IMG/VR virus record: IMGVR_UViG_3300040811_000891
Coordinates: 1 to 42,283 of that record
DNA from: a virus
Direction: 5' to 3' (one strand)
Length of the DNA: 42,283 nucleotides
Under the pieces are notes generated by a model that was not told the origin of the DNA, searched no databases, and saw only the letters and a program-made list of their open reading frames with translations. The position numbers were made by a program, and so were the translations under genes. Shown in pieces: positions 6,534-30,266 of the stretch. Within the stretch, counting starts at the first letter, position 1. Every line of letters starts with the position of its first letter.

Positions 6534-7628
6534 ATGGATTGTGTTGTAATAATTAAATCAGGAGATGCATGGTGGGATGATATTGCTGTAAACTATAGTC
6601 AGTTAAGTATTGATCACAGTGTGAGTAGTAGATATAGTCAAAGCAAATATGATTACTATTTAACAGATGAATTTAATTCGGCTGATTATACAAAGTACGA
6701 TCGTGTTTTAATTATACAAGCAGGTACTATATTGATATGGGGGAACTATGAAAAGAACATTATTCCCAGACTAAAAAATTATGAGAACATAAACATTTGT
6801 AGTGGTGCTGATGTCTGGCAACCAATGGGAGACGGTGATATTAGTCTTGATATGAATATACAATCACTTGATGTTTCCACAGCACAAACATTTATAAACA
6901 GTCATAGTGCCGCTGTTACTAATCTAATAGATGATAGTAATATAAGTTACTTAATGCATAACGAACTTCCAAAATATAGTTCAGCTAGTGATGCAGTGGA
7001 TTGGGCAATTACCGTAAGCAGTGGATTCTTTATTAATGGGATATTAAATCATCACGGTATGCACAATGATACTGTAATACATCATATGGACATAAGCAAA
7101 ATAAGTTTAGCTGTTAGAAAATATACCATTCAAGAATGGGATGGCACAGATATAAAAGGCTGGATTAAACATCTACAACAAAAATATCCTAGTATGCAGT
7201 TATTCAATAGACATAAGTTCACTGACAGAGATAGTGATTACATGACTATCTGGAAAAATCTACAAGCTGAATTTACTGACTGGATGTCACATTGGAAACA
7301 ATATCAAAGTTTAGAGCATTACTACCATAGAGTAAACATCAGTAACAAGGCAGATATAGACAAATTATTACTATCTATTACGTCTGGTACGGGTGTAATA
7401 TGGTGGAATGGCGCACTGAAACGTATGCCCGGAAACTTACTTAAAGACAGCAACACTAGTCATCAGTCAGCTATTGAATTTGTACAAACATTAGCAGAGC
7501 ATAATCCAAATACAATATGTTATGGAAGTGATCATTGTAGTAACCAGTTTAATGGAGAATTAGCCAGTAATGCAGTAAAGTTAGTATCAGAACAAAATAG
7601 TAGGGAAATGTTATGGCAGAAAAAATAA
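6534..7628 (+). CDS. Uncharacterised 364-residue protein
   Basis: No family recognised with confidence. The N-terminal third has strands alternating with polar loops (MDCVVIIKSGDAWW; YDRVLIIQAGTILIWG) that resemble a Rossmann or GT-A-like nucleotide-binding start. The middle contains SSGFFINGILNHHGMHNDT followed by an Asp-rich VIHHMDISK, a pattern seen in uncharacterised phage proteins near surface-modification genes. The C-terminal part is rich in Trp, Tyr and His. It lies two bases after a sulfotransferase-like gene and overlaps the PP-loop gene by 16 nt, so it belongs to the operon. Glycosyl- or methyl-transfer is possible but unsupported. Confidence 0.6.
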   Translation: MDCVVIIKSGDAWWDDIAVNYSQLSIDHSVSSRYSQSKYDYYLTDEFNSADYTKYDRVLIIQAGTILIWGNYEKNIIPRLKNYENINICSGADVWQPMGDGDISLDMNIQSLDVSTAQTFINSHSAAVTNLIDDSNISYLMHNELPKYSSASDAVDWAITVSSGFFINGILNHHGMHNDTVIHHMDISKISLAVRKYTIQEWDGTDIKGWIKHLQQKYPSMQLFNRHKFTDRDSDYMTIWKNLQAEFTDWMSHWKQYQSLEHYYHRVNISNKADIDKLLLSITSGTGVIWWNGALKRMPGNLLKDSNTSHQSAIEFVQTLAEHNPNTICYGSDHCSNQFNGELASNAVKLVSEQNSREMLWQKK

Positions 7629-8191
7629 ATTTACCTGCAGGGCCTATTGGTGTATATTTAAGTGGAGGAAGTGATAGCGCAATATTGTTTTGGTTGTTGG
7701 CATCACAAGGACAACATGATATTGTATTACTTACAGTTGCTAGTGATGATAAGAAATTTAATGTAGAACCTGCATATGAAGTAGCTAATTGGGTTAAGAG
7801 TGACACATCAGTAACAGTACTAGAACATCGTGTAATACTAGCACCAAACTTGGAATCACGCAAGAAATATAGAGATCAAGCTACTGACAGTTTAACTGAG
7901 CGATGGAATTTAAGTTGTTGGGTAAGTGGAAAAACACGTAACCCAGACGAGAAATTGCTACATCATGAACAAAGAAAACAAGATAGAGATAAAGCAATGC
8001 CTAGATTAATACACAAACATTTCTATCGACCCTTTCATAATATTAATAAAAGTCATCTTGAAATGTTATATAAAAAATATAACTTAAATAGATTACACAG
8101 TCTAACAGTAAGTTGCGAAACTAGCTATCCTCCCTGTGGAGACTGTTGGTGGTGTGCGGAACGAGAATGGGCATTTGGTAGTTATGTATAA
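7613..8191 (+). CDS. QueC-like PP-loop ATPase
   Basis: A 192-residue N-type ATP pyrophosphatase. The PP-loop SGGSDSA lies at 17-23. The C terminus carries C168-x6-C175-x2-C178-x2-C181 followed by R and AFG, closely like the zinc site and tail of QueC (C-x8-C-x2-C-x2-C, then R..GF). QueC makes 7-cyano-7-deazaguanine (preQ0) from carboxydeazaguanine, ammonia and ATP, and FolE-, QueD- and QueE-type genes are all present elsewhere in this window. Against this, it is about 30-40 residues shorter than usual QueC, the middle is divergent, and it sits in the plus-strand tailoring operon away from its would-be partners. Another PP-loop amidating or thiolating enzyme is the alternative. Confidence 0.6.
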   Translation: MAEKINLPAGPIGVYLSGGSDSAILFWLLASQGQHDIVLLTVASDDKKFNVEPAYEVANWVKSDTSVTVLEHRVILAPNLESRKKYRDQATDSLTERWNLSCWVSGKTRNPDEKLLHHEQRKQDRDKAMPRLIHKHFYRPFHNINKSHLEMLYKKYNLNRLHSLTVSCETSYPPCGDCWWCAEREWAFGSYV

Positions 8192-9150: not shown

Positions 9151-9327
9151 CTAATCATTTCTTGACTCGCTACTGTACACTTCTCTGTACAACCATTTGA
9201 TGCGATTTTCTAACATGTTGATTGTTGTGTGAATGTGTCCGGTGTCGTGAGGCTGTAACATGTCTTTGAGTATTACAACCTCACGTTTCAGAGATAACAT
9301 ATGTTCGAGTTTTTGCTCGTGTGTCAT
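9151..9327 (-). CDS. Small coiled-coil-like protein, 58 residues
   Basis: A short gene beginning MTHEQKLEHMLSLKREVV and ending YREVYSSESRND. Its ATG overlaps the ThyX stop codon (ATGA), so it is translationally coupled. The heptad-like leucines and charged residues suggest a helical protein. It is too short to assign a family. Support comes from the coupling and from filling the gap between ThyX and the late promoter exactly. Confidence 0.6.
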   Translation of the reverse strand: MTHEQKLEHMLSLKREVVILKDMLQPHDTGHIHTTINMLENRIKWLYREVYSSESRND

Positions 9328-17801: not shown

Positions 17802-18236
17802 TTAAAACCTAGATCCGCATATTTCAAAGCCATTAATTTTCTTTTTGTATTCGTCTGCTTGTCCTACGTATATGTATTCTACACCCTGAGCTTTGTAATA
17901 AGCACATTCATGGCGTAAACTTTTAAGTCCTAAATGTAGTTTTGGAGTTGCATAGTCCCATGCAAATTGTATTGCTTCGACATTTTTATCATTGAAACGA
18001 TGGTAATGACTAAACGCTACTAGTTTACTGTTATCAAAATATCCTATTATGTCACTGCGTGGCGCACACAAGTCTTCATCAAACAACGGCATAACACTTT
18101 CAAACTTTTTGTATTTGCAGTATGTGTCGTATATTTGTTGTAATAGTTTACAAGGAGGATTGTTCAGCAGCTGAGCATTTTTGCTTACACGATAATTTGT
18201 GTCTGATAACTTATATCTTGCATAAAAATCACTCAC
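17802..18236 (-). CDS. GNAT-fold protein resembling arginyl-tRNA-protein transferase C domain
   Basis: A 144-residue protein whose second half reads LVAFSHYHRF, then EAIQFAWDYATPKLHLGLKS and ECAYYKAQGVEYIYVG followed by a Y-K-x-K-I-x-GFE pattern. This order resembles the C-terminal GNAT-like domain of ATE/Bpt aminoacyl-tRNA-protein transferases, which move an amino acid from a tRNA onto a protein N terminus. The N-terminal cysteine domain of those enzymes is missing. Nearby tRNAs and a synthetase-like gene make a tRNA-dependent role attractive but unproven. It ends just 5 nt before the promoter for the short transcript. Confidence 0.55.
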   Translation of the reverse strand: MSDFYARYKLSDTNYRVSKNAQLLNNPPCKLLQQIYDTYCKYKKFESVMPLFDEDLCAPRSDIIGYFDNSKLVAFSHYHRFNDKNVEAIQFAWDYATPKLHLGLKSLRHECAYYKAQGVEYIYVGQADEYKKKINGFEICGSRF

Positions 18237-18745: not shown

Positions 18746-18846
18746 TGGCTCCGGGGGGAGGATTCGAACCTCCACGGTAAATACTTTGCGAGTTACTTAC
18801 CACACGATAAACAGTCGTGCGTGTCTACCAATTTCACCACCCCGGA
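18746..18846 (-). tRNA. Class II-shaped tRNA with GUU (Asn) anticodon
   Basis: The 98-nt body plus encoded CCA folds well: acceptor TCCGGGG/CCCCGGA, D stem GTG/CAC with an AAATTGGTAGA loop, anticodon stem CACGA/TCGTG, a long variable arm of 8 bp (GGTAAGTA with TATTTACC, one G-U) with a 10-nt loop, and T arm GGAGG-TTCGAAT-CCTCC. The D arm and variable arm are of tRNA-Leu type, yet the anticodon loop CTGTTTA gives GUU, and discriminator G73 is that of tRNA-Asn, as is the U1-A72 pair. Position 37 is U, where a purine is normal. It begins 7 nt after an Asn/Asp-synthetase-like core gene. Calling it tRNA-Asn or an altered tRNA-Leu is left open. Confidence 0.85.
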
Positions 18847-18853
18847 TTAACTG

Positions 18854-19696
18854 TTATGCAGCTAGGGCAAACTTTCCTTGTTTGTCCAGCGCCGCAATCA
18901 TTCTTGTCATACCAATGCCGCCACCAACACGTTGGAAGAAGTCAAACTTGAGGAACTCTTCTAGTTCTGCTTCTACACGTTCTTTACCAAACAGTTTGTA
19001 TAGTAACTGTGCATACTCTCCGTCTACAATACTGTGGAATGTATCACGCATCATATCAACATCACAACTACGTTCTGCCGATCCGATAGTTTCCATACCA
19101 CCTAAGATGACATCCATTTTCTTTGCAGTTTCGCCATCATCGTTACGTGCCATGTTCCAGAAAGGCGATGTTAGTTCTGGGAAGTCTGTGATTAAACAAC
19201 TACCAAAATTCATTTCCATGCCTTTTTCGTGACTGTCATCCATTTCAGTATCTGCACTTACACCCCAATGTTGTTGCCATTCTCTGTATGTTTTTTCTGT
19301 TAGTGGGTCAAATCCCAAATAGTCACACAGTTCATATTCCATTGCTTTAAGATCATCTACACTACCTGGCATCTCAAACTCAAACATAGGGAAGATAATA
19401 TCGTGTCTGCCTGGTATAGCATTTGGTTCTTGTCTATAGCTGGTACTTACACAAAAGAATCCTTTTGATTCTGGCTTGCTTAATAGTTCATGTTCTAACC
19501 ACATTTGTCCTGTCTGTGGTAGCGGCCATGTTTCGCCTGCGTAATTGTATGTTGCTACATTGAATGGATCTTCACATGCGGCAAGTATGCTTAGTCTGTT
19601 TTGGGTATGGACTTCTAAGAATCCTTTGTCCAAAAAAAATGACCTTAAAAGGCCAACTGTGTCTGTGAATTTTTGTGGGTTTATTAGTTGTGTCAT
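18854..19696 (-). CDS. Class II aminoacyl-tRNA synthetase-like core (AsnRS/AspRS or asparagine-synthetase type)
   Basis: A 280-residue class IIb catalytic core. Motif 1 region is near 20-31 (FFLDKGFLEVHT), motif 2 is TSYRQEPNAIPGRHD with FEFE (about 85-108), and motif 3 is GGGIGMTRM near 259-267. ETIGSAERSCDVD matches the GExIGGSxR segment of AsnRS. The N-terminal OB-fold that reads the anticodon is missing. In archaea such trimmed AsnRS-like cores make asparagine from aspartate; free aminoacylation is the alternative. The start at 19696 has AAGGA upstream; a TTG at 19714 in the same frame is less likely. The adjacent tRNA with Asn-type identity elements (18746-18846) suggests a link. Confidence 0.85.
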   Translation of the reverse strand: MTQLINPQKFTDTVGLLRSFFLDKGFLEVHTQNRLSILAACEDPFNVATYNYAGETWPLPQTGQMWLEHELLSKPESKGFFCVSTSYRQEPNAIPGRHDIIFPMFEFEMPGSVDDLKAMEYELCDYLGFDPLTEKTYREWQQHWGVSADTEMDDSHEKGMEMNFGSCLITDFPELTSPFWNMARNDDGETAKKMDVILGGMETIGSAERSCDVDMMRDTFHSIVDGEYAQLLYKLFGKERVEAELEEFLKFDFFQRVGGGIGMTRMIAALDKQGKFALAA

Positions 19697-19717
19697 TGTT
19701 TTTCCTTTTTTCAACCT

Positions 19718-20759: not shown

Positions 20760-21161
20760 TTATTTAGCGGGCATAGTAAACAATGCTCTTACGTCATGTG
20801 GTTCATCTATTACCAATGGTTTACGTGAAAAAATGCACCACTTGTAAGCATGCATTGTTTGTTTGGTTGTACAGAATTCTCTAAAGCTAGTACCAGTTGT
20901 GTACACATCATCAACAACCATCCAGGAATGATCGCCAGGTGTTACATACTTTTCCATTGCGCTTTGCAATGGTAATCCGCCTCTTGGAATGCCAACTACT
21001 TTACTAAAAGGTTCTGTTTGATAGTCCATAATCATACGTGCTAATCCGTCCCACCATTCTGGTCTAATAGCATCGCATTCGATCTTCCAAGGTAGTGGTA
21101 GACCTGCGTGACTAATAAAGTCGCCTACTTCAAATAAATTTGCACTAGTGTGATATGGCAT
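20760..21161 (-). CDS. Phosphoribosyltransferase-family protein
   Basis: A 133-residue protein with the PRPP-binding loop SWMVVDDVYTTGTSF, the signature of type I phosphoribosyltransferases, and an upstream KVVGIPRGGLPL, the usual region that holds pyrophosphate. The N-terminal part supplies a short hood. Such enzymes attach purine or pyrimidine bases to PRPP. The base cannot be predicted. It is the smallest of three PRTases in this window (with 23893-24426 and 26785-27321). An AAAGGA site precedes the ATG. Confidence 0.85.
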   Translation of the reverse strand: MPYHTSANLFEVGDFISHAGLPLPWKIECDAIRPEWWDGLARMIMDYQTEPFSKVVGIPRGGLPLQSAMEKYVTPGDHSWMVVDDVYTTGTSFREFCTTKQTMHAYKWCIFSRKPLVIDEPHDVRALFTMPAK

Positions 21162-21245
21162 TTATAATCCTTTGTCTCTGAGTTTGTTAGGGTTAATCGG
21201 TGCTCTCATAGCACGATCTAATTTTTCACTACGTTCCCCACGCAT
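21162..21245 (-). CDS. Possible 27-residue basic peptide
   Basis: Between the QueE stop and the PRTase start, a short frame reads MRGERSEKLDRAMRAPINPN and seven more residues. Its ATG lies 17 nt inside the QueE end. No ribosome-binding site is seen, so this is tentative; it may simply be spacer. Confidence 0.25.
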   Translation of the reverse strand: MRGERSEKLDRAMRAPINPNKLRDKGL

Positions 21246-22125
21246 TGCCAAAGAGGCTGATGTGTAATCGGGGTGTAAACCTCCACCCTCTTTCCATGCA
21301 GATGTCTGCGACTTCTTGGACATTGAGGTTGTACTCTTCGCTCCTACCGCCCAACGGCATAAGGTAGACAGGTGCTTCAATACCTGCCGCACGATATTCA
21401 TCAACAGCTCTGCCAGCTTCATCAATGTCTGTACGATCAGCAACAACAAATTTGAAATACAGAGAGCTACCATCAACACCAGCATACTCACGAGCAACGC
21501 TAGGCTTGATAGCAGTATCCCAAGGTTCTCCGCTAATGGAGAGTTTAGGGCTACAACTCCAAGTGACTTCAAATCTGTCTTGATTGTTGAGATAGTCGTA
21601 AAAGTCGTCATGTAAAGGTTGTGTAGTGTTTGTTTCAAATGTAACATTTTTTAGATCCTGCATACGTGGGTGTTCAAATAATTCTATGTACAGTCGTTGC
21701 CACGCCAACAACGGCTCGCCGCCAGTCATTATTAAGTGTACGTCTTGTCCATTGTCTTGTACCCATTTACCATTGGGTGTCAAACTCAATAGATGTTCTA
21801 CAACTTCGTCAACTGTTGCTCTTTTATTTAAGTGTTTAAATTCAGGATAGATACTTGCATATGTATCACAGCCTGTGTGTATAATAGGCAAGTCTTCGAA
21901 CACTGTTGTATTTTCATGTACTTTCTGATCTAGTAAGCCCATTACTTCTTGATTGTGTATAACGCCTGCTTTTTGTTTAGCATCACGCATAGGCTCATCT
22001 CTGCCTAATCCAAAATTCATACAACGAAAGTTACAACCAAATGTACGTAAAAATACGCTAGGTACTCCTACATATTTGCCTTCACCTTGTACTGAATAAA
22101 ATGCTTCGCTATAGTGTAGTTTCAT
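21229..22125 (-). CDS. queE: 7-carboxy-7-deazaguanine synthase (QueE), inserted-cluster type
   Basis: A 298-residue radical SAM enzyme turning carboxytetrahydropterin into 7-carboxy-7-deazaguanine. The start MKLHYSEAFYSVQGEGKYVG is the classic QueE opening with GGAGG 5 nt before the ATG; the frame remains open 60 nt further upstream but that region codes for another gene. VFLRTFGCNFRC holds two cluster cysteines; the third, in HTGCDTYAS, follows only after about 45 extra residues, where ordinary QueE has CxxC-D-T directly. MTGGEPLL is the SAM site and RLHISLFGNAWGT the usual C terminus. The same inserted form occurs in marine phage QueE as I recall. It is part of a preQ0 pathway with FolE, QueD-like and QueC-like proteins. 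Confidence 0.93.
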   Translation of the reverse strand: MKLHYSEAFYSVQGEGKYVGVPSVFLRTFGCNFRCMNFGLGRDEPMRDAKQKAGVIHNQEVMGLLDQKVHENTTVFEDLPIIHTGCDTYASIYPEFKHLNKRATVDEVVEHLLSLTPNGKWVQDNGQDVHLIMTGGEPLLAWQRLYIELFEHPRMQDLKNVTFETNTTQPLHDDFYDYLNNQDRFEVTWSCSPKLSISGEPWDTAIKPSVAREYAGVDGSSLYFKFVVADRTDIDEAGRAVDEYRAAGIEAPVYLMPLGGRSEEYNLNVQEVADICMERGWRFTPRLHISLFGNAWGT

Positions 22126-22286
22126 AGTTCCTCCACAATGCCTAATATTTCTGCAACAAGTAAACCTACGGCTAGCCATCCCCAACTACCTGTAGCCAGT
22201 GCTACTACACAGCCTGCAATACGTGTTGCACTTTTTACAAGACTAATGTAAAAATGTTTTTTACTTGGATCTACTGGTTCAGCCAT
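22122..22286 (-). CDS. Small membrane protein, 54 residues
   Basis: Starts MAEPVDPSKKHFYISLVKSA and then has one hydrophobic segment (about 23-50; GCVVALATGSWGWLAVGLLV). Its stop overlaps the QueE ATG (ATGA) and its ATG overlaps the preceding gene by 8 nt, so both couplings support it. The QueE ribosome-binding site lies within its last codons. Function unknown; inner-membrane location is predicted. Confidence 0.75.
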   Translation of the reverse strand: MAEPVDPSKKHFYISLVKSATRIAGCVVALATGSWGWLAVGLLVAEILGIVEEL

Positions 22287-23797: not shown

Positions 23798-23900
23798 TTT
23801 TAATTCCTTCTTGTAACATACGATATGGTATAGTGCATGTCCATATATAGATAGGCCAGAATACCAAGTTTGCTACTAAAATTTCAACCCATTCACTCAT
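23784..23900 (-). CDS. Tiny membrane protein, 38 residues
   Basis: Starts MSEWVEILVANLVFWPIYIW and continues through PYRMLQEGIKNAKS. One membrane segment. Its ATG overlaps the end of the APRT gene by 8 nt and its stop overlaps the AbrB-like gene by 14 nt. It fills what would otherwise be a 95-nt gap between genes, and carries the downstream gene's ribosome-binding site. Confidence 0.6.
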   Translation of the reverse strand: MSEWVEILVANLVFWPIYIWTCTIPYRMLQEGIKNAKS

Positions 23901-24426
23901 TGTTCCAAACCGTTTCTAGTGTGCTAATAGGAAATCCTAAATCTTTTCCAGGACCTCTTACATACTGTAAATCAATAACAGTGACACCTCTCAGAACTTT
24001 AGCACCTGTTTGTTTTATTAGATCTCCGGTGGCCACCATACTACCACCTGTAGCAATCAAGTCATCTACAATAACACAACGATCTGTGTGACCCAGCAGT
24101 CCTTTTTGTAGTGTAAGTGTTGCACTACCATATTCAAGATCATAACTTTGCTCTAATAGGTCTCCTGGGTACTTAGCGCCTTTTTTACGCACCATTACAA
24201 ACGGTAAGTTTAGCTCATGTGCTATAGCTGCACCTAGTACAAAGCCTCTACTTTCAACACCTACAATGTGTGTAATATTGTCTGTGTATTCAGTTACTCT
24301 TTTGGTCATTTCGTGTACTGCTTTGCTAAACATAGGTCCAGCAAACAAACTGTTAAGATCGTAAAAATTTATACCTTCTTGAGGATAATCAGGTATTGTT
24401 CTAATATAATCTTCCCATCTAATCAT
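23893..24426 (-). CDS. apt: Adenine phosphoribosyltransferase-like protein
   Basis: A 177-residue PRTase that joins adenine and PRPP to give AMP. APRT landmarks: RTIPDYPQEGINFYDL (the IPDFP..GI.F.D opening), VGVESRGFVLGAAIA (pyrophosphate-binding ESRGF), RKKGAKYPG, and the PRPP loop CVIVDDLIATGGSM. The start at 24426 (MIRWEDYIRTIPDYP) is chosen since GGGAG lies 8 nt before it and it overlaps the TK stop (TAATG); an upstream extension to 24441 overlaps TK. Adenine released by the nucleosidase at the window start could be its substrate, closing a salvage loop. Confidence 0.93.
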   Translation of the reverse strand: MIRWEDYIRTIPDYPQEGINFYDLNSLFAGPMFSKAVHEMTKRVTEYTDNITHIVGVESRGFVLGAAIAHELNLPFVMVRKKGAKYPGDLLEQSYDLEYGSATLTLQKGLLGHTDRCVIVDDLIATGGSMVATGDLIKQTGAKVLRGVTVIDLQYVRGPGKDLGFPISTLETVWNNE

Positions 24427-28462: not shown

Positions 28463-29539
28463 TTAACCGGGTACCTGTGATGTAATGCCTTCGACATAAA
28501 ACATCATAGTGTCTAGTTGCTGTCTAGTTGCTACTTCACCTTCTGCTAAGAATGGTGTTCCGTCTTGCTTGTTAATTGGACCTGTAAATCCAAACAACTC
28601 ACCTGCGCTAATAGCATCTTTTACACGCTGTGCTTCTGCTTGTACATCAGCTGGCATGTTAGCAAACGGTGCCATTTGTACAGCGCCTTCGTTCATGTGT
28701 CCAAAGTAATCACCTGTTTCCCATGTACCGTCTAGCACTTGTCCTACTTTCCTAATATAGTAAGGACCCCAATTGTCAATAGTTGCTGTCAATTGTGCAT
28801 TAGGAGCAAACTTCATTTGATCACTTGCTTGACCAAATCCAAGTACACCAGCTTCTTGTGCCGCTTGTAGTGGAGCAGGTGAATCGGTGTGTTGTGCTAC
28901 AATGTCACAACCCTGTTGAATCATTGCTACTGCCGCATCTTTTTCTTTGCCTGGATCATACCATGTGTACACCCAAGTAATTTTTAGGTCTACATCTGGG
29001 TTCATTTTCTTTGCACCTAGATAGAATGTGTTGATTTCACGCATAACTTCTGGAATTGGGAATGAAGCAATATAACAAATTGTGTTTGTTTTTGTCATCA
29101 TACCAGCAATAATACCTTGTACGTGTCTTGCTTGGTATAGTTTCAAACCATAGTTAGCAGCATTTTCTGATTGCTTATAACCTGTAGCATGTTCAAACTT
29201 TACATTTGGAAATTTCTTAGCTACGTTAATAACTGGATCCATGTATCCAAATGATGTAGCAAAAATAATATCTGCGCCTTGTAGTGCCATTTGTGTTAGT
29301 ACACGTTCAGCATCAGCGCCCTCTGGTACACTTTCAACAAATGTAGTTTCAACACGATCACCGTATGCTTCTTCTACTTGCTGACGACCAATGTCGTGTC
29401 GATATGTCCAGCCGTGATCACCTGTTGGACCGACGTAAATAAATCCGACTTTTGCTTTGTCCTTAGGAGCATCTGCACTTGCAGAAACGCCCATTGCTGT
29501 CGCTACTAGTGTAGCAGCCAATAGTTTTACTATTTTCAT
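28463..29539 (-). CDS. BMP-family ABC-transporter substrate-binding protein
   Basis: A 358-residue periplasmic binding protein of the BMP/PnrA (Med) type. Signal peptide of about 22 residues (MKIVKLLAATLVATAMGVSA). Landmarks: KVGFIYVGPTGDHGWTY, QGADIIFATSFGYMDPVINV, CYIASFPIPEVMREIN, DIVAQHTDSPAPLQAAQEAG and TIDNWGPYYIRKVG. Family members capture nucleosides or purine-like compounds for ABC import. No permease or ATPase gene is present, so it would have to work with the host's transporter, as phage PstS is thought to do. It looks like host alphaproteobacterial proteins, suggesting transfer from the host. An AAAGG site precedes the ATG and a terminator follows it. Confidence 0.93.
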   Translation of the reverse strand: MKIVKLLAATLVATAMGVSASADAPKDKAKVGFIYVGPTGDHGWTYRHDIGRQQVEEAYGDRVETTFVESVPEGADAERVLTQMALQGADIIFATSFGYMDPVINVAKKFPNVKFEHATGYKQSENAANYGLKLYQARHVQGIIAGMMTKTNTICYIASFPIPEVMREINTFYLGAKKMNPDVDLKITWVYTWYDPGKEKDAAVAMIQQGCDIVAQHTDSPAPLQAAQEAGVLGFGQASDQMKFAPNAQLTATIDNWGPYYIRKVGQVLDGTWETGDYFGHMNEGAVQMAPFANMPADVQAEAQRVKDAISAGELFGFTGPINKQDGTPFLAEGEVATRQQLDTMMFYVEGITSQVPG

Positions 29540-29582: not shown

Positions 29583-30266
29583 TCATCCTGCAAATTGCTG
29601 TTGCAATTTGATATTATCCATAAACTCTTTCTTAGTGCCATGGTCGTCTTTAAAAGCACCTTTGAGTACTGTTGTTTGTGTTAAACTACTATGTGCCATA
29701 ATGCCGCGATTCTCACAGCATCCGTGCGTTGCCTGAATGTAAACACCCACATCATTACTACCAGTTGCAGTTTGGATTTCTCTTGCAATTACCATTGCAA
29801 GTTCTTCCTGTAGTGTTCCACGCCTAGCGCACCATTGTGCGATACGTGTGTATTTGCTTAACCCAATTAATTGTTCTGCGGCAATAATACCGATGTATGC
29901 AACACCTGCCACTGGCTGATGGTGATGCGAACACATACTTTTAAGTTCACTACGAACTACTAGCATGCCATCGTATTTGTCTGCGCTGTCATTGGGAAAT
30001 GCTGTTGCCTTAGGGATAGGATCATAACGTCCTGCCATTAGCTCATTGATATACATTTTTGCAAGACGTCTACCTGTGTCCATGCTGTTAGGATCGTTTG
30101 CTCTATCAATAAGCAAACTATCTAGTATAGATTCAAATTTTGGGGTAAGTTCTTCAATCAGTTCTTGTTTGTCTCCATCTTGTAATATTGAAGAGACGTT
30201 GTCGCCCGCCCAATAACGAATGCCTGCATCGTCAAGGCGTGCCTTTAGTTCTTTTGATTTTTCCAT
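29583..30266 (-). CDS. folE: GTP cyclohydrolase I (FolE type)
   Basis: A 227-residue enzyme making 7,8-dihydroneopterin triphosphate from GTP, the first step to both folate and preQ0. C112 and H115 in SMCSHHHQPVAG and C183 in HGCCENRGI form the zinc site; SKYTRIAQWCARR is the substrate-binding helix. Length is standard. With the QueD-like, QueE and QueC-like proteins it completes a route to preQ0 in one window. Folate supply for ThyX is a second possible use. It lies between a glycosyltransferase-like gene and the BMP gene. Confidence 0.94.
   Translation of the reverse strand: MEKSKELKARLDDAGIRYWAGDNVSSILQDGDKQELIEELTPKFESILDSLLIDRANDPNSMDTGRRLAKMYINELMAGRYDPIPKATAFPNDSADKYDGMLVVRSELKSMCSHHHQPVAGVAYIGIIAAEQLIGLSKYTRIAQWCARRGTLQEELAMVIAREIQTATGSNDVGVYIQATHGCCENRGIMAHSSLTQTTVLKGAFKDDHGTKKEFMDNIKLQQQFAG

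Follow-up and report, generated by a model that had tools for sequence, protein, structure and literature searches.

The anticodon and G73 are the identity elements of bacterial tRNA-Asn, and the U1-A72 pair was established as a determinant for the amidation of Asp-tRNA-Asn (PMC9976931; for identity and amidation determinants see also PMC4206432). Long variable arms joined to non-cognate anticodons have been described in the nematode nev-tRNAs (PMC4300185) and in the allo-tRNAs (PMC7609411), neither of which is from phage or linked to a synthetase-like gene; nev-tRNAs with long V-arms were charged with leucine in vitro (PMC4300185). On the enzyme side, the closest described systems are AsnRS, a class IIb synthetase, and its archaeal paralogue asparagine synthetase A (PDB 3rex), a protein of ~290 aa that consists of the catalytic domain only and works without tRNA. 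We have analysed a viral DNA stretch of 42,283 nucleotides (IMG/VR record IMGVR_UViG_3300040811_000891, hereafter the window), whose DNA polymerase most resembles the polymerases of jumbo T4-like phages, e.g. that of Sinorhizobium phage Phosso (49.5%). The window carries a two-gene phage module, an AsnRS-like enzyme and its tRNA, conserved together in many marine phages. In a literature search outside of which most subscription papers fell, no description of the pair was found, nor of its tRNA, of the synthetase or of an AsnRS-like enzyme for pyrimidines, the only mention being that of a 'tRNA ligase T4-GC 194' in P-SSM2 and P-SSM7 (PMC3037559).

Table 1. Features of the window, with positions counted from its first nucleotide.
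Feature	Position	Strand	Basis or remark
tRNA, class II, Leu-like body, GUU, G73, encoded CCA	18746-18846	-	Rfam RF00005, covariation, ARAGORN ends
Anticodon GUU (34-36)	18810-18812	-	Rfam placement; same in 96/96 distinct homologues
U37	18809	-	Loop CUGUUUA
Long variable arm, 8-bp stem	18774-18802	-	RNAfold, covariation, homologue alignment
Discriminator G73, then encoded CCA	18746-18749	-	Sequence
AsnRS-like catalytic-domain protein	18854-19714	-	PF00152; phrog_29758, unknown function; AF2 model
Short phosphoribosyltransferase (PRTase)	20760-21161	-	Same family as PRTase beside cellular AsnRS-like genes
ATE_C/arginyltransferase-like protein (GNAT type)	17802-18236	-	E 6e-5 and 7e-4
PnrA-like nucleoside-binding ABC-transporter lipoprotein	28463-29539	-	Also in 24 viral loci
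QueE-like sequence	21229-22185	-	By eye, no Pfam hit
GTP cyclohydrolase I	29583-30266	-	
QueC-like PP-loop protein	7613-8191	+	

The tRNA gene of the window is 101 nt long and reads 5'-TCCGGGG TGGTGAAATTGGTAGACACG CACGA CTGTTTA TCGTG TGGTAAGTAACTCGCAAAGTATTTACCGT GGAGG TTCGAAT CCTCC CCCCGGA G CCA-3'. Against the Rfam tRNA model RF00005 it scored 49.8 bits (gathering threshold 29), and the model placed CUGUUUA as the anticodon loop, giving GUU, U37 and G73, while RNAfold returned a cloverleaf with an 8-bp variable stem at -35.9 kcal/mol. In a covariation analysis of 33 homologues 98.9% of cells were paired and 17 of 28 pairs had changes on both sides, values reached by 0 of 500 shuffles. The window tRNA thus has the score above gathering and the compensatory base pairs of an RF00005 tRNA, and it is genuine, with its anticodon correctly read as GUU. 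ARAGORN found the same gene ends and labelled the gene tRNA-Asp(atc), which we reject as a register error, since the 7-nt loop closed by CACGA/UCGUG has GUU at its centre, where the 96 distinct homologues have it as well; the atc register leaves the anticodon stem unclosed. An earlier note on the window had described a chimera of a Leu-like class II body with GUU, G73, U37 and an 8-bp variable stem, and this description was borne out by the sequence, the Rfam model and RNAfold. Both ways in which it might have failed were excluded, as the Rfam covariance model placed the anticodon at GUU and the 96 homologues with GUU rule out a sequencing error in the anticodon loop. The Leu-like nature of the body is supported by model searches, in which ordinary tRNA-Leu genes were the next best matches of the pair-tRNA model in the cellular genomes checked. 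Bacterial tRNA-Leu shares with the pair tRNA the D arm GGUGGUGAAAnnGGUAGACAC, a 3-bp D stem and the long variable arm, whereas the pair tRNA differs from it by G73 instead of A73, by GUU and by U1:A72.

The pair tRNA was found behind the enzyme gene in 145 of 160 viral loci, taken from two viral scans (77/80 and 68/80) with a few contigs in both. Of the 15 loci with no tRNA call, five were too short to tell and ten had no detectable adjacent tRNA. The tRNA mostly begins no more than ~70 nt after the stop codon of the enzyme, with distances of up to 232 nt. Cyanophages P-SSM2, P-SSM5 and P-SSM7 also carry such a tRNA after the enzyme gene, so that the co-occurrence of a synthetase-like gene with a tRNA, a criterion of orthogonal pairs, is found in the 145 viral loci as well as in three cyanophages. 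The tRNA model identified the pair tRNA as the sole tRNA of the P-SSM2 genome, for which one tRNA is also listed in PMC3037559. In GenBank (NC_006883.2) this tRNA-Asn is annotated at 164094-164179, ~2 kb away from the 162083-162168 given by the tRNA model, and its position beside the ligase was thus hidden in the annotation. No other neighbour was comparably conserved with the enzyme, the next best being present in 24 of 166 loci. The pair was also present on five bacterial MAG contigs (L176, L177, L178, L182 and L245), which probably come from phages and ended up in the MAG bins. Huge phages have the enzyme without the pair tRNA, and an ordinary tRNA-Asn with A37 is found elsewhere in their genomes; a hairpin upstream of one huge-phage enzyme gene (L087) was considered as a tRNA and rejected, having no Rfam hit. 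In another phage locus a short PRTase of the same family as in cells lies directly after the tRNA-less AsnRS-like gene (L364:4849-5220).

Altogether 96 distinct pair tRNAs of 77-111 nt were gathered without selection on the anticodon. GUU was present in all of them (94 by best stem and two in the standard register), and G73 and U1:A72 in 95 each, the lone exception to both being the tRNA of L245, whose acceptor end is broken. The variable region ranges from 5 to ~39 nt, and the long arm is therefore dispensable; positions 32, 33, 37 and 38 vary as well. One subclade (L304, L305, L308, L315, L318-L320, L336 and L351) has tRNAs of 77-79 nt with a variable region of 5-8 nt which are not class II, and in four loci (L007, L014, L015 and L017) the T stem of the tRNA contains one additional, bulged base (GCAUGG/CCUGC). 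The suggestion that a tRNA-Asn of this kind would have an unprecedented shape is right only in part, as there are members with a short variable region. Bacterial tRNA-Asn shares GUU, G73 and U1:A72, and the anticodon arm of the pair, GACUGUUnAUC, is very similar to its own; the pair tRNA differs in its Leu-like D arm, usually long variable arm and a position 37 that is mostly U instead of A. As the invariant GUU and the near-invariant G73 and U1:A72 are the published marks of Asn identity and amidation, the cargo is most likely asparagine rather than leucine or serine.

In tRNAs reading ANN codons A37 is usually modified to t6A. The window tRNA retains U33, but its position 37 is U rather than A, and in the family position 37 was U in 74, A in 12, G in 6 and C in 2 tRNAs, i.e., a pyrimidine in 76 of 94. 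Among the other tRNAs on the same contigs, a control set that leaves out three pair tRNAs, position 37 was a purine in 85/85 and A in 17/17 tRNAs with U36. U33 was lost in 7 of 94 pair tRNAs (kept in 93%), for which the control is weaker since ARAGORN may favour U33. The family thus has the features of tRNA-Asn identity and lacks the U33 and A37 of a tRNA-Asn elongator; it also departs from tRNA-Leu, which has A73, and from tRNA-Ser, which has a long variable arm throughout. With U as the usual base 37 and an occasional loss of U33, the pair tRNA is probably not an ordinary elongator, and we infer that selection maintains it for something other than normal elongation. The same two features, the non-purine 37 and the missing U33 of some members, favour the earlier note's reading that the tRNA may have no use in translation. 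Weak decoding by tRNAs with an unusual base 37 is possible.

The AsnRS-like open reading frame, which did not figure in the earlier note, ends seven bases upstream of the tRNA on the same strand. Its start is probably the ATG at 19696, behind a Shine-Dalgarno-like AAAGGAAA, giving 280 aa; an alternative TTG at 19714 gives 286 aa. By Pfam the only domain is tRNA-synt_2 (D, K, N), at residues 20-276 of 286, and an anticodon-binding N-terminal OB domain was found neither by Pfam nor in the AF2 model (pLDDT 91), which is filled by the catalytic domain. The best structural matches of the model were AsnRS catalytic domains (Z 27), followed by AspRS, EpmA/GenX and archaeal asparagine synthetase A (Z 23.3). 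The predicted structure thus shows an AsnRS catalytic fold without the anticodon-binding domain. In family terms the protein is distant from both relatives, scoring 32 bits against the asnS equivalog (cut-off 342.6), far below the cut-off, and a weak 20.1 bits (cut-off 389) against PRK06462.1-5, archaeal asparagine synthetase A. The motifs and the ATP and Asn pocket residues are shared with AsnRS. When aligned to AsnRS (2xgt) and AspRS (6od8), the enzyme reads QTGQMWLE where AsnRS has SSQLYLE and AspRS SPQLYKQ, and FEFE where they have vEaE and lDvE, respectively. From AspRS and AsnRS structures we take certain of the aligned positions to be those that touch the amino acid. The positions separating Asn from Asp match AsnRS and not AspRS, suggesting an Asn-type substrate pocket.

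A single scan, covering genomes of bacteria and archaea, detected homologues with ~54% identity in Patescibacteria, Aureispira, Chitinophagales, Pasteurella atlantica, Midichloriaceae and others. Phage and cellular enzymes have 69 near-invariant positions in common with 3 weak group differences, and no residues that determine specificity between the tRNA-bearing phage enzymes and the cellular ones were found. The pair tRNA was not found in the homologue-bearing cellular genomes that were searched; in P. atlantica and Bandiella the class II tRNAs that were read belonged to Leu, Ser and Tyr, and P. atlantica has ordinary tRNA-Asn genes. In 23 of 70 cellular loci pyrD, pyrE, pyrF or a PRTase gene lies no more than ~4 kb from the homologue, directly adjoining it in 14, and in P. 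atlantica the order is pyrD, AsnRS-like gene, pyrF, PRTase. Such clusters occur among L176-L255, e.g. L219:4977-5846. ATCase was over the cut-off in 3/50 homologue genomes, many of which are incomplete MAGs, compared to 14/14 controls. Carbamoyl-phosphate synthetase large subunit was over the cut-off in 3/26 and PyrC_multi, searched with the pyrC_multi model, in 0/26; dihydroorotase-like proteins in the Bacteroidota homologue genomes stayed below the cut-off. DHODH was present in 30/50 and absent from 20/50. AsnB was over the cut-off in 16/26 and AsnA in 5/26 of the genomes; given the AsnB figure, the homologue is not a general replacement for asparagine synthetase, though it might act as one in the remaining genomes. 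In chemical terms, dihydroorotate corresponds to an asparagine whose two nitrogen atoms are joined through a carbonyl group, and TsaC makes threonylcarbamoyl-AMP from bicarbonate. By analogy to TsaC, an enzyme that binds Asn and adenylates with ATP could form dihydroorotate from bicarbonate. The cellular AsnRS-like gene is a candidate for an unrecognised pyrimidine enzyme, and the homologues suggest an unrecognised step from asparagine to dihydroorotate.

The surroundings of the module in the window fit, without proving, a role in nucleotide metabolism. Besides the genes of Table 1 there are phosphoribosyltransferases at 23893 and 26785, a thymidine kinase at 24426 and ThyX at 9324. The QueE-like, GTP cyclohydrolase I and QueC-like genes may form a 7-deazaguanine pathway, the possible targets of modification being DNA or the G34 of tRNAs of the GUU type. 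The ATE_C-like gene lies two genes downstream of the tRNA on the same strand, and its homologues were found in 2 other, nearly identical loci among 166.

We propose, with a probability of about one half, that the module joins an AsnRS-type enzyme reduced to its catalytic domain with its own tRNA of asparagine identity, a non-elongator of possible metabolic use. Since the neighbouring enzyme cannot reach the anticodon, GUU is probably kept for a host enzyme, and charging with asparagine would fall at least in part to the host. The host route would be AsnRS, or a non-discriminating AspRS followed by GatCAB, for which U1-A72 is the published determinant; the neighbour might or might not assist at the acceptor end. 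More speculatively, and with a rather low probability when taken by itself, the carried asparagine would feed the neighbouring enzyme, whose cellular relatives appear to make dihydroorotate for pyrimidine synthesis, from Asn, bicarbonate and ATP. The tRNA would then act as a metabolic carrier that is unattractive to the ribosome. Non-proteinogenic tRNAs such as the staphylococcal cell-wall tRNA-Gly are charged by a normal synthetase and have a shape that avoids translation; their amino acid and partner differ from those of the pair tRNA, and the likeness is one of analogy only. The metabolic role might be found, for example, in hosts making asparagine only on tRNA, as described in PMC4206432. 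A bolder and somewhat doubtful version makes the ribosome-shy Asn-tRNA a cofactor of an AsnRS-derived dihydroorotate maker that would bypass CPS, ATCase and dihydroorotase, a reaction that the cellular relatives would carry out with no dedicated tRNA. Against the proposal stand the ten loci without a detectable adjacent tRNA and the huge phages and cells that have the enzyme and lack the pair tRNA, which show that the enzyme can do without it in places. Also to be counted against it are the sub-threshold dihydroorotase-like proteins of the Bacteroidota genomes, the incompleteness of many MAGs, the lack of DHODH in 20/50 genomes and the retention of U33 in 93% of the pair tRNAs. A connection between Asn on the tRNA and dihydroorotate is speculative and drawn from gene context.

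Several other explanations were weighed against a non-elongator asparagine tRNA. It is possible, if not the reading we favour, that the module serves translation, the truncated AsnRS charging its own tRNA at the acceptor end so that the phage can decode AAC/AAU, e.g. to evade anticodon nucleases or a shortage of Asn-tRNA. Enzyme and tRNA are kept adjacent as in known synthetase-tRNA pairs, decoding would explain the invariance of GUU beside an enzyme with no anticodon domain, and the odd tRNA body could give orthogonality or nuclease resistance. The anticodon loop speaks against it, with its frequent pyrimidine 37, rare A37 and occasional loss of U33, whereas other phage tRNAs keep a purine at 37. 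The cellular homologues speak against it too, having the same conserved residues, no matching tRNA and pyrimidine genes as neighbours. Charging with leucine or serine by host enzymes, with misreading of Asn codons, was raised by the earlier note and is now very improbable. In its favour are the Leu-like D arm and long variable arm, the fact that Leu identity can turn into Ser identity when A73 is replaced by G73 (PMC9976931), and the leucylation of nev-tRNAs in vitro (PMC4300185), from which the pair tRNA differs in having G73 together with the Asn marks. Its G73 removes the A73 that Leu identity needs, the 77-79 nt members give SerRS no long arm, and the invariant GUU and near-invariant U1:A72 play no role in Leu or Ser identity.

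It is also unlikely that the enzyme charges the tRNA for a phage aminoacyl-tRNA transferase, which would pass the amino acid on to a protein or metabolite. The ATE_C-like neighbour is the candidate by its match and its position, yet the ATE_C score is just below Pfam's cut-off and no transferase is conserved with the pair; being confined to near-identical loci, this neighbour was ruled out as a general partner. Slightly less probable still is that the tRNA is only an element for the processing or regulation of the enzyme mRNA, placed at its 3' end and acting through tRNA punctuation or feedback by tRNA binding. Such an element would leave unexplained why GUU, G73 and U1:A72 persist while the body and variable arm change freely, and the distance between tRNA and gene varies, even if the tRNA usually starts close to the stop codon.

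If the non-elongator asparagine tRNA and its enzyme are a charging system, they would be a compact, widespread natural synthetase-tRNA pair without an anticodon-binding domain, of use for genetic-code engineering and for studies of identity recognition confined to the acceptor end. Should the tRNA instead be a metabolic carrier, this would represent a new use of aminoacyl-tRNA in the phage takeover of nucleotide synthesis. The cellular homologues, in turn, may be the missing pyrimidine-synthesis enzyme of genomes that have pyrD/E/F and lack the classical first steps, and, if the dihydroorotate reading is true, they would reveal that diverse bacteria make pyrimidines by a route so far unrecognised.
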